Assembly (NCBI GenBank): GCA_003133685.1
Contig: PKYQ01000015.1
Span: forward strand, 91,619 to 132,433
Length of the DNA stretch: 40,815 bases
DNA from: Acidimicrobiaceae bacterium
Lineage (GTDB): Bacteria > Actinomycetota > Acidimicrobiia > Acidimicrobiales > RAAP-2
Direction: 5' to 3'
Position 1 is the stretch's first letter. The number at the start of each line of letters is the position of its first letter. Positions 8,287 to 18,408 of the stretch are shown here, one piece after another. The notes under the pieces were generated by a model. The model was given only the letters and a program-made list of their open reading frames with translations. It was not told the origin of the DNA and searched no databases. Made by a program: the position numbers and the translations under genes.

Positions 8287-8505
8287 CTACTTGTCGGTGT
8301 CGGGGGCCCTGGTCTCGGCCAGCGTCTCCGGCGTGTCGGCCGATGTGTCGGGGCGCTTGGACTCTCTCAGCCCCTTCTCAAATTCGGACTTGGCCGAACC
8401 GAGATTCTTCGCCAACTTGGGAATGGCGGCGCCCCCAAAAAGGAGGACCCCGACCACGACGACAACAATCACGCCATCCATACCAAAAATCTCGCCTAAG
8501 AACAC
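8287..8505 (-). CDS. tatA: Sec-independent protein translocase subunit TatA
   Basis: Forms the pore-like part of the Tat system that exports folded, often cofactor-bearing proteins. The product is 72 aa: one hydrophobic helix (VIVVVVVGVLLFGG), the FG hinge, an amphipathic helix (IPKLAKNLGSAKSEFEKGL) and a polar acidic tail. GTG start at 8505 chosen because AAGGAG lies six bases before it; longer readings have no such support. It precedes the cox genes on the same strand, 142 bases ahead of ctaC, and is divergent from azlC. TatB is unlikely given the short tail. The Rieske domain encoded at 15090-16313 is a plausible client in this window. Confidence 0.88.
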   Translation of the reverse strand: MFLGEIFGMDGVIVVVVVGVLLFGGAAIPKLAKNLGSAKSEFEKGLRESKRPDTSADTPETLAETRAPDTDK

Positions 8506-13735: not shown

Positions 13736-14818
13736 TTAGATGGGGAAACGTTGCCTTAGCCAATCGGCGAAGAGTGGGTCGACAACTCTCAGTTCTCCGC
13801 CCTTGTCGAAGAGATCTCCACTGTCGAGAAGTGTTTGGCGGGCGTGGGTTGCTGTGCCCTTTGCCAGTTCGAGAAGATCCGCTTCGGCCCCGTAGATGCT
13901 GCCCGAGCGGGCAATGGAGCGCAGGACGTCACGTTCGCCGCGTTCGAAGTGAGAGTAGATGCGTTCCATGCCTTCACCGGTCCCATGTCGGACGTCGTCC
14001 AGCCCTGCTGCCCACCAGTCTTCTGCAGTCGTCGCTGCGTCCCAATTCCGCCAAGCAGCATCGGCGAGTTGCATACTTCGTTGAGGGTGCCCACCACTGA
14101 ATAGGTGGATAAGTGCCGCTAGCCCGCCCGAATCCCGTTCAGATTGTGCGAAACCGGTGCGGACTGTCTCCTCGAGGGCTGCGGCGGAGATCGAGCCGAT
14201 CTCGATGAGATCTGCCTGACCGTAGAACGGTTCGGCCCGATCGGTGAACAAAGCGCGCATCATCGAAGGGTGGGAACCGGCAAACACGAGTCCGAGATCG
14301 CCGTAGTGGTGTTGAATCGCCGTACGAAGCAATCCGGCCGCCCCGGGGACCCGGGCGATTGAAGAGAACTCGTCGATTACGAGCAGAGTCGGTTCACGCT
14401 GCGCGGTCCGAACGAGCACATCGAGCGTTGAGGCAAAGGTAATCGCCGGGTCAGGGCGGAGTCGGGCCGGTCCGGCCAACTCGACTTTGACCATCCCCAG
14501 GTTAAGTGACATCGATAAGGCGAGGTTGCGAGCGGCCGTTTGCCATCGCCCTGTCGGGCCAGCGAGAGCATCGTCGAATCGCACAGCCACATCAGCGGAC
14601 GACGCCACCTCATAGAGGTCGACCCAGACGGTGGTGACCTCGCTCAGTTCAGAAGCCACCCGGCGCAGAACGCTCGTCTTGCCATACCGGCGCGGGCCAA
14701 GGAGGACGGTCACCCTCCGTTCAGTGACTCGCTCCACAAGGTCGGCCACCAACTCACGGCGCTCGACCACTTGGAATGGCTCAAGCGGTCCTTGGTACGG
14801 AAACGGGGAAGCTCTCAC
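13736..14818 (-). CDS. Stand-alone AAA/STAND-like ATPase
   Basis: P-loop ATPase of 360 aa resembling the ATPase_2 (archaeal ATPase, PF01637-like) group. The N-terminus reads FQVVERRELVADLVERV, as in proteins that open with a 'FVGR-E-L' motif. Walker A is GPRRYGKTSVLRR (about residues 41-53), Walker B LLVIDEFSSIAR, and a sensor-like strand LVFAGSHPSMM. The C-terminal ~90 residues look like a winged-helix module (RDVLRSIARSGSIYGAEADLLELAKG). GTG start at 14818. The promoter region contains an inverted repeat and a direct repeat. Function unknown; such ATPases occur as solitary, mobile-looking genes. Confidence 0.8.
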   Translation of the reverse strand: MRASPFPYQGPLEPFQVVERRELVADLVERVTERRVTVLLGPRRYGKTSVLRRVASELSEVTTVWVDLYEVASSADVAVRFDDALAGPTGRWQTAARNLALSMSLNLGMVKVELAGPARLRPDPAITFASTLDVLVRTAQREPTLLVIDEFSSIARVPGAAGLLRTAIQHHYGDLGLVFAGSHPSMMRALFTDRAEPFYGQADLIEIGSISAAALEETVRTGFAQSERDSGGLAALIHLFSGGHPQRSMQLADAAWRNWDAATTAEDWWAAGLDDVRHGTGEGMERIYSHFERGERDVLRSIARSGSIYGAEADLLELAKGTATHARQTLLDSGDLFDKGGELRVVDPLFADWLRQRFPI

Positions 14819-14874: not shown

Positions 14875-15089
14875 GACTCGTCCTTGCCCATTGACCCACT
14901 GTTTGGTCCGATCGGGCGCGGTGGCCCAATGACAATCTCGCGGCGACAGGGTTCTTCAAATGACGAGCGGTGACACCAGGGATATGTCTGGGCTGGGCGG
15001 ACTGCGGGATTTTCAACTGCACCCCTCTACACCTAAGGACTTCAGTTCGCGAAGTCAATCCCAAATTCGCCCTGTGCCACGATGGCAGC

Positions 15090-16313
15090 ATGCCAATAAC
15101 GCCCGTCCCGCCCGTTGGTCGCGCCCGTGGGGCCGAACGTCGTCTCCCGCTCGGTGCCCCGGTTCGAGCCTGGTCCATGGCCGAATGGGCGTTGTTACCG
15201 CTTCGACTCTTCCTCGGCGCGACGTTCCTCTACGCCGGACTGCAAAAGCTGGCCAACCCGAACTTCTTTCGTGCGCCGAGTCCGATATCGATCCAGGCCC
15301 AGCTCATCGCCGCCTCGCACACGAGTCCCCTCCATGCCCTGCTCCTCCACTTGATCCGCGTCGCTGCGCCGATCGGCATTGTCATTTCATTCTCCGAGGT
15401 CGCGATCGGCATCGGCGTGTTGCTCGGACTCTGGACTCGAATTGCCGCGATCGGCGGCGCGATCCTGTCCTTCAGCCTGTTCTTGACGATTAGCTTTCAC
15501 GCCGCGCCGTACTTCACCGGCGCCGACATCGTCTTCTTCTTCGCCTGGCTGCCCTTCATCATCACGGGCGGTGGTACGAAACTTTCGGCCGACGCGTGGA
15601 TCGCCAATCGAGTCGCGCAGCGAGAAGGTGTCCCCTCGCCCGAGTTGGTGGCGATACCGTTCGCGACCGTGCAACAGATCTGTGGTCATTTCCACCAGGG
15701 CGCGTGCGCGGCACGCGAAGGACTGGCCTGTGACAAAGCGGTCTGTCCCGTCCTGCTCGGGAATCGGGCGCCGTTGGTGACGCGCGTGTCGATCGACTCG
15801 GTTGATCGACGGGCGCTCGTCATGGGTGGCGCGGTCGCGGCCGGGGTGGGTGCGGCGGCGTTGATCCTCGGCGGTGTCGTCGCCGAGACCGGCAAGTTGA
15901 TCGGGGGAGCGAAGCCCGCCCGGAGCGCCACGACGCAGTTCGCGTTGCCGACGGGTGGTTCGACGACGACCACTGCACCCACCACGGGTCCGACCAACTC
16001 GACGACGAAGGGCACGCTGCTCGGGAGTGCGAAGGACGTGCCGAAGGGACACGCCGCCGCGTTCACCATTCCTTCATCGGGCGATCCGGGCATCGTGATT
16101 CACGCCGACGGCGCCTACTTCGCTTACGACGCGGTCTGTCCGCACGCCGGTTGCACCGTTGGTTACTACGCGGCGAACGACGTCATCGTCTGTCCGTGTC
16201 ACGGTTCGGAGTTCGCGGTGACGACCGGCGACGTCATGAACGGGCCGGCGCCGCACGGACTCGCCAAGCTCAAGATTGTCGAAGGGTCGAACGGTAACCT
16301 CTACTTGCAATGA
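15090..16313 (+). CDS. DoxX-like membrane domain fused to a Rieske [2Fe-2S] domain
   Basis: Predicted membrane-bound redox protein of 407 aa. Residues ~30-170 form a four-helix DoxX/DoxD-like domain (LFLGATFLYAGLQKLANP is the family opening), known from thiosulfate:quinone oxidoreductase subunits and other membrane redox partners. A linker with four cysteines follows (CGHFHQGACAAREGLAC then DKAVC). A twin-arginine segment, VDRRALVMGGAVAAG with Arg240-Arg241, precedes a hydrophobic helix. After a Ser/Thr/Pro-rich spacer the Rieske domain ends the protein, with CPHAGC (350-355) and CPCHGSEF (368-375); cluster ligands would be Cys350, His352, Cys368 and His371. Start at ATG 15090. The stop overlaps the response regulator start (ATGA), so the three genes are one operon. 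Substrate unknown. Confidence 0.82.
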   Translation: MPITPVPPVGRARGAERRLPLGAPVRAWSMAEWALLPLRLFLGATFLYAGLQKLANPNFFRAPSPISIQAQLIAASHTSPLHALLLHLIRVAAPIGIVISFSEVAIGIGVLLGLWTRIAAIGGAILSFSLFLTISFHAAPYFTGADIVFFFAWLPFIITGGGTKLSADAWIANRVAQREGVPSPELVAIPFATVQQICGHFHQGACAAREGLACDKAVCPVLLGNRAPLVTRVSIDSVDRRALVMGGAVAAGVGAAALILGGVVAETGKLIGGAKPARSATTQFALPTGGSTTTTAPTTGPTNSTTKGTLLGSAKDVPKGHAAAFTIPSSGDPGIVIHADGAYFAYDAVCPHAGCTVGYYAANDVIVCPCHGSEFAVTTGDVMNGPAPHGLAKLKIVEGSNGNLYLQ

Positions 16314-16996
16314 GTGGGGACCGCCGACGGGTGTTGGTAATCGAGGATGATCACGCCCTCGCCAAGGCCGTGGCGAACCTCCTCGAAGACGCCGGATTTG
16401 ACGTAGAACAACGTCACGACGGCGAATCGGGACTGGCCGAAGGACGAGTCGGCGAGTACGACGCCATCGTGCTGGACCTCATGTTGCCGAAGCGCAACGG
16501 CTTCAGCGTCGCGCAGGATCTGCGCGCGGCCGGCGTCCACACCCCGTTGTTGATGCTGACCGCCAAAGACGGCGAGTGGGACGAGGTCGAGGGGCTCGAG
16601 GTCGGCGCCGACGACTTCATGCACAAGCCGTTCGAGAACTCCATCTTGATCGCGCACCTCCACGCGTTGCTGCGTCGACACGACCGTGGTCGACCCCAGC
16701 GCCTGGTGGTCGGTCCGATCTCGCTCGATCCGCTACGCCGAGCGGTCGTCGCCTACGGCCGTGATATCGCGTTGACCCCTCGGGAGTTCGCCCTGCTGGA
16801 ATTTCTGATGGAGAGGGCGAACGAACCACTGGCCAAGACAGAGATCCTCGCCGCGGTGTGGGGTAGCGGCTTCGACGGCGACCCCAACATCGTCGAGGTC
16901 TACATCGGTTACCTTCGCCGGAAGATCGACGCCGCACCGTTCGAGTCGGTGATCCGCACCGTGCGCGGCATTGGCTACAGCATCCGCGCGGACTGA
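16310..16996 (+). CDS. Two-component response regulator, OmpR family
   Basis: DNA-binding regulator of 228 aa paired with the next gene. The receiver domain has the acidic pair in VIEDDHALA, phosphoacceptor Asp56 in IVLDLMLPKRNG, and the conserved threonine and lysine in LMLTAKD and FMHKPF. The C-terminal winged helix contains LTPREFALLEFLM and VEVYIGYLRRKID ... IRTVRGIGYSIRAD, typical of OmpR/PhoB members. The start overlaps the DoxX-Rieske stop by four bases and the stop codon shares a base with the kinase start, so all three genes are translationally coupled and the signal may concern the redox state read or set by that protein. Confidence 0.94.
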   Translation: MSGDRRRVLVIEDDHALAKAVANLLEDAGFDVEQRHDGESGLAEGRVGEYDAIVLDLMLPKRNGFSVAQDLRAAGVHTPLLMLTAKDGEWDEVEGLEVGADDFMHKPFENSILIAHLHALLRRHDRGRPQRLVVGPISLDPLRRAVVAYGRDIALTPREFALLEFLMERANEPLAKTEILAAVWGSGFDGDPNIVEVYIGYLRRKIDAAPFESVIRTVRGIGYSIRAD

Positions 16997-18408
16997 TGCC
17001 GAAGCGTCACAAGTTCTCGATTCGAGCCCGTCTGACCTTCATCTTCGTCCTGGCCGTCGCGGCGATCCTCAGTGTGACCGGCGTCTCACTCGTGCACCTC
17101 GTGCACCATTCCCTGGTGAGCGACGCCGATAACGAAATTCAAAGTCAGATGATCCGCACCCAGGAGATCTTCGCGAACGCGAAGTCCGTCCACAACTATC
17201 GCGTCATTCTCGCCGTGCACGGTGACGTCGTGATCCAGGTCACGAATCTCGCCGGGACCAAGGTGTGGGCGGCCAGTTCGGCAATCTCCAAGGCGCCCGT
17301 CCTCGCGCGCACCGGTGACACTCCCGGGGGCGCCCGACTGGCGCTGAAAATGGTGGGAACGTCGCGTGACAAAGACACCCTGTCCCTGATCAGTTCGGGT
17401 CAGATCGGGACGATCGCCACCCGCCGCGGACCCGGACTGATCTTCGGCTTCCTCTACGGCGAAGGCATCGATCACAACGTGGACGTCTTGATGGCCAGCC
17501 TGGTGGTCTCGTTCCCGTTGCTGCTTCTGATAACCGGTGGTCTCATTTGGATCGGCATGGGCCTCGCGCTCGCGCCGGTCGAGTCGATTCGACGCCGCGT
17601 CGACACCATCGCGGCCACGGACCTCTCACAACGCGTGCCCCCGACCGGAGGAAAGGACGAAATCGCCCGCATGGCCCGAACGGTCAACGCCATGTTGGAT
17701 CGACTCGAGGCCTCGTCGCAGTTCGAGCAGGAGTTCGTCTCCAACGCGAGTCACGAGCTGAGAAGTCCGCTCACCACGCTGCTCGCGACCACCGAACGAG
17801 CCGCGAAGGACCCCGATCGCGCGGACTGGAATGAAGTGGGCGAGGTCGTCATGCGCGAGGGCCGTCGTCTCGAGACGTTGATCGACGATCTCGCGTGGCT
17901 CGCGCGACACGACGAGCACCGAGCCGAAATCCAAAGTGTCGACGTCGACCTCGACGATTTGCTCCTCGAAGAGGGACATCGAGTGCGCCTACTGAGTGAA
18001 TTGTGCGTGGACACGACGATGGTGCGTCCGACGCGCGTCACGGGTGACCCGGCGATGCTGAAACGAATGATCCGCAACGTCGTCGACAACGCCGCGCGCT
18101 ACGCCACCGAAGAGTTGCGATTCGATTCGCACTACGAAGGGGCCGAGGCCGTGGTCACGGTGGCCGATGACGGTGAGGGCATCGATGTCGGTCAGAGCGA
18201 CCGATTCTTCGAGCGCTTCGTTCGTGCGGACCCGGCGCGTGCTCGCCACTCCGGCGGCACCGGATTGGGGCTGGCGATCGTCGCCGAGATAGTCGAACGC
18301 CACGGCGGCTCGTCATGTTTCGTCGCGACCGACGTGGGAACGAAGATCGAACTGCGCGTTGTGCGAGACCGGCGCGCGTCCTCGGGGAGTACGCGGCGCT
18401 CGACCTAA
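16996..18408 (+). CDS. Sensor histidine kinase
   Basis: Membrane kinase of 470 aa for the preceding response regulator. Two transmembrane helices (about residues 12-33 and 163-190) bracket an extracytoplasmic sensor region of ~130 residues without recognisable fold. A HAMP domain follows (PVESIRRRVDTIAATDLSQRV), then the H-box SNASHELRSPLTTLL with His253, the N-box MIRNVVDNAARYA, and G-boxes VADDGEGID and GGTGLGLAIVAEI. ATG start at 16996 overlaps the regulator's stop codon by one base. The ligand cannot be deduced. Its 3' end is overlapped on the other strand by an alkyltransferase-like remnant. Confidence 0.94.
   Translation: MPKRHKFSIRARLTFIFVLAVAAILSVTGVSLVHLVHHSLVSDADNEIQSQMIRTQEIFANAKSVHNYRVILAVHGDVVIQVTNLAGTKVWAASSAISKAPVLARTGDTPGGARLALKMVGTSRDKDTLSLISSGQIGTIATRRGPGLIFGFLYGEGIDHNVDVLMASLVVSFPLLLLITGGLIWIGMGLALAPVESIRRRVDTIAATDLSQRVPPTGGKDEIARMARTVNAMLDRLEASSQFEQEFVSNASHELRSPLTTLLATTERAAKDPDRADWNEVGEVVMREGRRLETLIDDLAWLARHDEHRAEIQSVDVDLDDLLLEEGHRVRLLSELCVDTTMVRPTRVTGDPAMLKRMIRNVVDNAARYATEELRFDSHYEGAEAVVTVADDGEGIDVGQSDRFFERFVRADPARARHSGGTGLGLAIVAEIVERHGGSSCFVATDVGTKIELRVVRDRRASSGSTRRST

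Follow-up and report, generated by a model that had tools for sequence, protein, structure and literature searches.

What might be the role of a protein in which a DoxX/DoxD-like membrane domain is joined to a Rieske iron-sulfur domain by a linker containing four cysteines and by a further hydrophobic helix carrying two arginines? This question is raised by the window, a 40,815-nucleotide stretch of an Acidimicrobiaceae genome that begins at C1:91619, in which an earlier note, made from the sequence alone, had described such a fusion. DoxX proteins are common and poorly understood, and the attachment of a Rieske domain that would reside on the outer face of the membrane points to a concrete redox partner and provides a hypothesis amenable to testing, namely that of a quinone.

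The gene is part of an open frame ranging from a GTG at position 14970 to 16313 of the + strand, with its 407-residue product starting at the ATG at 15090 (Table 1). All described parts, the DoxX/DoxD-like domain, the linker, the helix with the arginine pair and the Rieske domain, were recovered in the open frame, in Pfam searches and in a structural model. The Pfam scores amount to 34.4 bits for DoxD (cut-off 22.7), 34.4 bits for DoxX (cut-off 23.6) and 50.2 bits for Rieske (cut-off 20.3). The AlphaFold2 model, which was obtained with 67 aligned sequences and shows a mean pLDDT of 81.0 and a pTM of 0.70, places the helices of the membrane domain at residues 25-55, 82-112, 116-135 and 145-159, followed by a linker of little structure. 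Behind it come a long fifth helix (232-271), which has the arginine pair 240-241 close to its start, and a well-predicted Rieske domain.

Table 1. Features of the fusion gene and its surroundings, with positions counted from the first nucleotide of the window.
Feature	Position	Strand	Basis
DoxX-(four-Cys module)-TM5-Rieske fusion, 407 aa	15090..16313	+	open frame, Pfam, homologues
DoxX/DoxD-type domain, residues 34-177	15189..15620	+	Pfam, AlphaFold2
Four-cysteine module, residues 184-222, Cys 198/206/214/219, predicted cytoplasmic	15639..15755	+	fusion alignment
Helix 5, residues 232-271, with Arg240-Arg241 at 15807-15812	15783..15902	+	AlphaFold2, alignment
Rieske [2Fe-2S] domain, residues 312-393, bc-type	16023..16268	+	Pfam, alignment
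OmpR-family response regulator, ATGA overlap (16310-16313) with fusion gene	16310..16996	+	open frame, Pfam, relatives
Sensor histidine kinase, HAMP-HisKA-HATPase	16996..18408	+	open frame, profile matches
TatA/B/E-family match, outside operon (C1:99971-100102, 6.6 kb from 15090)	8353..8484	-	profile match

A search for the same fusion and its neighbours, as proposed in the earlier note, provided 77 further different fusions from peptide-pattern and whole-protein searches, which were aligned with the window protein to a total of 78 rows. Left out of this alignment were two loci representing the window again (L003, L071), fragments or broken frames (L070, L044, L099) and rows identical across the last 330 residues; profile alignments used subsets of 50 (A1), 67 (A2) and 53 (A3) rows. 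Since one of the six patterns used in the peptide search (ACDKAVCP) is located in the cysteine-containing linker, the collected loci lean towards proteins carrying it.

In the window protein the Rieske motif CPHAGC...CPCH is complete, and the ligands C350, H352, C368 and H371 as well as the extra cysteines C355 and C370, which correspond to the disulfide pair of bc-type Rieske proteins, are conserved in 78/78 rows. The Ser/Tyr hydrogen-bond pair, which is typical rather than defining for high-potential Rieske clusters, is not found as such: Ser373 is present in 74/78 rows and position 375 is Phe in 74 and Tyr in four, a replacement of the usual Tyr that would presumably make the cluster potential somewhat lower. 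The home genome encodes a separate QcrA-like protein (L004) with the motifs CTHLGC, CPCHQS and QRRKLL, and two other Rieske-domain proteins.

For the DoxX part, the best structural match of the model is NACHO/TMEM35A (127 aligned residues, rmsd 3.5), whose Z-score of 11.5 is below the value of 13 regarded by the tool as safe for helical bundles; the next row has a Z of 6.6. Weak matches, found among unrelated ones, include GGCX (Z of 6.1, 106 aligned residues, rmsd 3.2), an enzyme that handles vitamin K hydroquinone, and the sigma-2 receptor (Z of 5.9), and the absence of any chain named DoxX from the lists of matches carries no meaning. Among 67 rows, the invariant polar residues of this domain comprise K53, R117 and D146, which the model places at the ends of helices, and E103, which it places within helix 2; together they could line a quinone pocket.

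The most distinctive element of the protein is its linker. In the window protein, the whole stretch reads CGHFHQGACAAREGLACDKAVC with a C-x7-C-x7-C-x4-C spacing, the segment ICGHFHQGACAAREGLACDKAVC corresponding to C198-x7-C206-x7-C214-x4-C219. The length of the region between the DoxX domain and the arginine pair shows a bimodal distribution in the 78 fusions, with 50-59 residues in 61 rows, 5-15 in 17 and none between. When the rows are grouped by length, without use of the cysteines, at least four cysteines are found in 61/61 long linkers (three rows contain five) and zero in 17/17 short ones. The module is therefore present or absent as a whole, and judged from its sequences the four-cysteine pattern is more than chance. 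The exact x7-x7-x4 spacing occurs in 53/61 module rows, an x7-x6-x4 spacing in one clade of five and a shorter variant in three rows from MAGs titled Frankiaceae or Frankiales, with locus L107 showing x8-x6-x4. The consensus of 50 rows, PxLVxIPFAxVQxxCGxFxxGxCxARxGxxCxxxxCPVLL, contains the four invariant cysteines and no other invariant residue of ligand type, and no cysteine column outside of the module and the Rieske site exceeds 7/61 rows. Poor conservation of the linker cysteines, which would have counted against their proposed role as ligands of a second cofactor, was sought in the homologues and is absent wherever the long linker is present. A structure prediction of the linker, which had equally been suggested, displays short strands and helices at moderate confidence (block means 64-73) that are much alike in two models. 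A profile search of the PDB with the module provided no convincing solved structure (one chance match, E of 6.7), and no fold match was obtained for the module itself in the structure-match lists, which hardly test it. A Pfam search of 50 module members detected Cys_rich_VLP in five (best E of 3.2e-4), and five families were each matched by a single member. The DoxX-Rieske protein with its module is real and conserved, and belongs to a known, little-characterised class from which it is set apart by a small, apparently undescribed module. It is quite probable that the module binds a metal, and in that case an Fe-S cluster appears slightly favoured over zinc.

Module-bearing rows originate mostly from Acidimicrobiaceae-like MAGs, the relatives of the window, and among the best 30 loci of the whole-protein search, including the window, four cysteines are found in 29, the remaining locus (L099) being cut by a contig end. 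In loci L082, L088 and L107/L111, where wrong domain borders had caused the automatic flag to miss the module, the cysteines are present in the sequences. In this group the module is frequent rather than universal: 13 of the 17 module-less rows belong to MAGs titled Acidimicrobiales or Acidimicrobiaceae, and a genome of the window's own genus (G269) contains a fusion without module (L113), which indicates that the module is dispensable. In four further genomes of this genus (G012, G018, G030, G034), short matches to the Rieske or the DoxX part were detected in separate places and no fusion. A quick, unrooted tree calculated without the linker, from which L046 was left out, requires four changes of module state, three of them forced by well-supported branches, compared to a mean of 15.8 after shuffling. 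One locus (L037) shows the home gene order without module and has no regulator gene within 1.3 kb downstream.

Beyond this group, a complete fusion was found in 10/13 genomes of the order around the Frankiaceae-titled MAG, some of them already counted in the 78-row alignment, with the module present in five and absent in five. Among the 47 genomes of the class to which a Ktedonobacterales MAG belongs, 20/20 fusions examined lack the module, although their linkers are not short. The module profile matched at least four of 296 genomes of the phylum in a scan of up to 25 candidates per genome, which is thus not exhaustive: the window's genome, two of its family where the match lies inside fusions (L106, L107) and a doubtful fourth with a weak score (E of 3.4e-4) and a stop inside. 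Fusions without module were encountered in other actinobacterial families (L122, L123, L125, L126, L127, L133). The full-length profile matched 210/296 genomes, among the matches listed mostly through the Rieske part only. The fusion is widespread, and its module is seen in two actinobacterial groups. Two observations concern unfused or possibly differently fused relatives. In one actinobacterial family (L130, L131, L134, L137, L138), a DoxX gene and a Rieske gene are direct neighbours on opposite strands and form an unfused counterpart, and in genomes of group f52/g65 (e.g. G220:C3:312482-312919) frames of about 550-680 residues match the DoxX part with no Rieske match listed for that location, where DoxX is possibly fused to something else.

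On which side of the membrane would the two potential metal sites be located? The earlier note had interpreted the helix with the arginine pair as a Tat signal-anchor that exports the Rieske domain, and the homologues support this: Arg-Arg is kept in 76/78 aligned fusions, and RRxF is found in 20/20 of the examined Ktedonobacteria fusions, in 13 of them as [ST]RRxF[LIVF]xG, which is close to the Tat consensus. The mean number of Lys and Arg residues, counted for loops whose borders were set by hand from the model, amounts to 6.2 for the first 30 residues, to 1.4 and 0.1 for the two outer loops and to 1.1 and 7.2 for the two inner ones, in agreement with the positive-inside rule, and Lys or Arg is present within residues 262-285 at the C-terminal end of helix 5 in 77/78 rows. 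Together with the invariant extra cysteine pair of the Rieske site, which suits a domain on the outside, the arginine pair, the charge distribution and the basic residues following helix 5 argue for a cytoplasmic module and an external Rieske domain. A cytoplasmic placement of the latter was sought and not found in the sequence features that report on topology, and we regard the outward orientation and Tat export as very likely, with the location of the module in the cytoplasm being well supported by the same features. The predicted helices and the arginine pair fit the plan of polytopic metalloproteins using both Sec and Tat (PMC5449189), with an even number of helices, an arginine pair, a single helix and a C-terminal cofactor domain, and the basic residues behind helix 5 agree with the positive charge at the end of their Tat helix. 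The fit to the rule for the hand-over appears imperfect, since low hydrophobicity is a reported property of the helices concerned (PMC5449189) and the Kyte-Doolittle value of helix 5 in the query (2.18) is no lower than those of helices 1-4 (1.46-2.14). Simple summation of Hessa-scale values puts helix 5 above zero in 72/77 rows, as it does the medians of all other helices. The tatA gene to which the earlier note had drawn attention is real, and its proximity says little because it lies outside the operon, and the only TatC match above cut-off, together with another TatA match, is found on contig C19.

The gene overlaps with a two-component system, and in 70 rows with at least 700 nt of downstream sequence a regulator is located next door in 42/55 module-bearing cases, 38 of them with an ATGA, GTGA or TTGA overlap, and in 1/15 module-less cases, with the kinase usually following the regulator in relatives. 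A strict pairing of the module with the two-component system was considered and rejected, given the 13/55 module rows without a regulator and the single module-less row with one. The N-terminal sensor region of the kinase is partly conserved and contains no conserved cysteine in 27 rows, and neither the regulator nor the kinase reaches the cut-offs of the heavy-metal models. In part of the relatives, a direct repeat TAA-N8-TAAG (e.g. GCTAAGACCTCGCTAAGAGTG) is found about 45-83 nt before the aligned start, with an 11-bp period as in OmpR-type operators. This repeat occurs in 14/45 regulator-linked rows (shuffle mean 0.2), five of which belong to one close clade, and in 3/26 rows without regulator (shuffle mean 0.11), and other spacings from 4 to 13 are found in zero or one row. 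Of 42 matches detected in 750,676 bases of locus sequence, 19 share the strand of the fusion and precede it by at most 150 nt, and an exact copy is absent from the window. Autoregulation by the coupled regulator, as the position of these repeats may suggest, has in our estimate about the same chance of being right as of being wrong. The proposed link between redox input and transcription draws on the coupled operon and on the upstream repeats in part of the relatives, and it is weakened by the kinase, which has an N-terminal sensor region of its own with no conserved cysteine, and by the module rows without regulator.

A second recurring TAA-N8-TAAG site of the approximate sequence TTAAAAAnTGACTAAGGTTT is found on the opposite strand, at a distance of about 3-6 kb upstream from the fusion (L013, L018, L019, L021, L022, L024, L025, L031, L039, L041, L047) and may be a promoter element or the site of another regulator. 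Most of 12 rows compared also contain a stretch resembling CTGTGGCA just before the start codon (at about 15070-15090 in the window). In the window, an AAA-ATPase gene (13736-14818, - strand) is located between a VTT-domain gene and the fusion. It has no match in any locus except the window's own copies, and most relatives with that flank have the VTT gene immediately upstream of the fusion; the AAA-ATPase gene looks like a recent insertion, which may also have disturbed the upstream repeat. Away from the home arrangement, no common partner gene was detected among 135 clustered neighbour frames from 27 of 32 loci; these frames stem from greedy, partly spurious gene calls that gave none in the remaining five. 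Pfam searches of 10 neighbour proteins identified MFS twice, a weak TetR-like match, aldo/keto reductase, HTH_67, abhydrolase and PEPCK, with three having no family.

How could these parts work together? We propose a bundle of four DoxX-type helices that would presumably be inserted by Sec and would most likely bind a (mena)quinone. From there, the chain would cross the cytoplasm, where the optional four-cysteine module would bind its metal centre, before the signal-anchor helix with its arginine pair is handed to Tat, by which the folded Rieske domain with its loaded cluster would be exported to the outer face. There, the cluster would exchange electrons between the quinone site and a partner, and the coupled two-component system would probably control its own operon in response to the redox or metal state of the envelope. 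We consider the chances of this overall model of a membrane-anchored redox protein, consisting of a DoxX bundle, a cytoplasmic metal module and a Tat-exported Rieske domain, as evenly balanced, and those of a quinone as partner as marginally lower. If the module contained an Fe-S cluster, the protein would have one cluster at either face of the membrane, separated by a quinone-type DoxX bundle, and could act as a single-protein transmembrane redox relay read by the kinase of its operon, an arrangement that we deem unlikely.

The interpretation of the module that most seriously competes is that of a purely structural zinc knuckle, which would dock a cytoplasmic partner or stiffen the loop and leave the Rieske cluster as the only redox-active centre. 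The presence of four cysteines and no further invariant ligands, the short strands and helices predicted much alike in two models and the loss of the module from proteins that retain their DoxX and Rieske parts would all be in line with such a role; but the last cysteine is directly followed by proline in 59/61 rows, a weak likeness to the Cys-Pro of ferredoxins, and zinc-finger families were matched by single members of the 50 at most, so that we view this possibility as real and somewhat improbable. Alternatively, the cysteines might operate as a metal-free thiol/disulfide switch in the cytoplasm that signals to the kinase or the regulator of the coupled system. The conserved gene overlap would suit this purpose, but the near-uniform spacing exceeds the needs of a switch and a neighbouring regulator is lacking in nearly a quarter of the module rows (13/55), leaving it an improbable explanation.

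The two other explanations concern the protein as a whole. A DoxD score above cut-off and a bc-type Rieske site could be taken to place it in known enzyme complexes, in the former case as an enzyme resembling thiosulfate:quinone oxidoreductase (TQO) whose DoxA has been replaced by the Rieske domain. This we judge very unlikely, as the home genome (G000, 95.26% complete) has no match to DoxA (PF07680) and the NCBIfam model for the DoxD of TQO reaches 23.6 of 300. The Rieske site, along with the internal arginine pair that is also found in actinobacterial QcrA (PMC5449189), could instead point to an alternative Rieske subunit of a cytochrome bc1 complex. The score of 49.4 of 275 bits with the NCBIfam model for actinobacterial QcrA and the lack of any cytochrome among the neighbour proteins scanned argue against it, as does the QcrA-like protein encoded elsewhere in the genome, and we would be most surprised if it proved correct. 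Since the genome contains this separate protein and no match to DoxA, the fusion most likely is neither a bc1 subunit nor a TQO, and its sequence instead suggests a quinone-linked redox protein of the envelope.

Mycobacterial DoxX forms a DoxX-SseA-SodA complex, and like this protein and the DoxDA of TQO the window protein contains a DoxX domain by Pfam, but it differs from both by its fusion to a Rieske domain. The resemblance to NACHO/TMEM35A (PDB 9h9e) concerns the predicted fold of the membrane domain, whereas that protein is a eukaryotic receptor-assembly factor with 16% identity over the aligned part of a matched chain of 133 residues. Among the open-licence papers listed, no publication on a DoxX-Rieske fusion or the four-cysteine module was found, and searches combining DoxX with NACHO, TMEM35 or MauE returned no DoxX paper by title among the matches listed. 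The QcrA of actinobacteria (S. coelicolor Sco2149) shares the Rieske domain behind an internal signal-anchor with two arginines and Sec-inserted helices, but contains three helices and is a bc1 subunit, and in the QcrA-like protein encoded by the home genome the arginine pair is not preceded by a cysteine module. Internal Tat signal-anchors behind helices inserted by Sec are described as a feature of actinobacteria (PMC5449189), whose Rieske proteins have three and occasionally five helices, the last being inserted by Tat (PMC5449189, PMC7317946). KSE_30950 of Kitasatospora setae is listed among the five-helix proteins assembled by Sec and Tat (PMC5449189, PMC7317946), which by their description are alike in the even number of helices, the arginine pair, the single helix and the external Rieske domain in actinobacteria. 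The main text of PMC5449189 does not contain the stem 'Dox', and the passages on these proteins mention no four-cysteine module. The five-helix Rieske plan completed by Tat is already known, and the all-or-none module would add to it an apparently undescribed small putative metal site, in the loop at which Sec would hand the chain over to Tat; for the cooperation of the two pathways the fusions in Ktedonobacteria and several actinobacterial families would offer many natural test cases.
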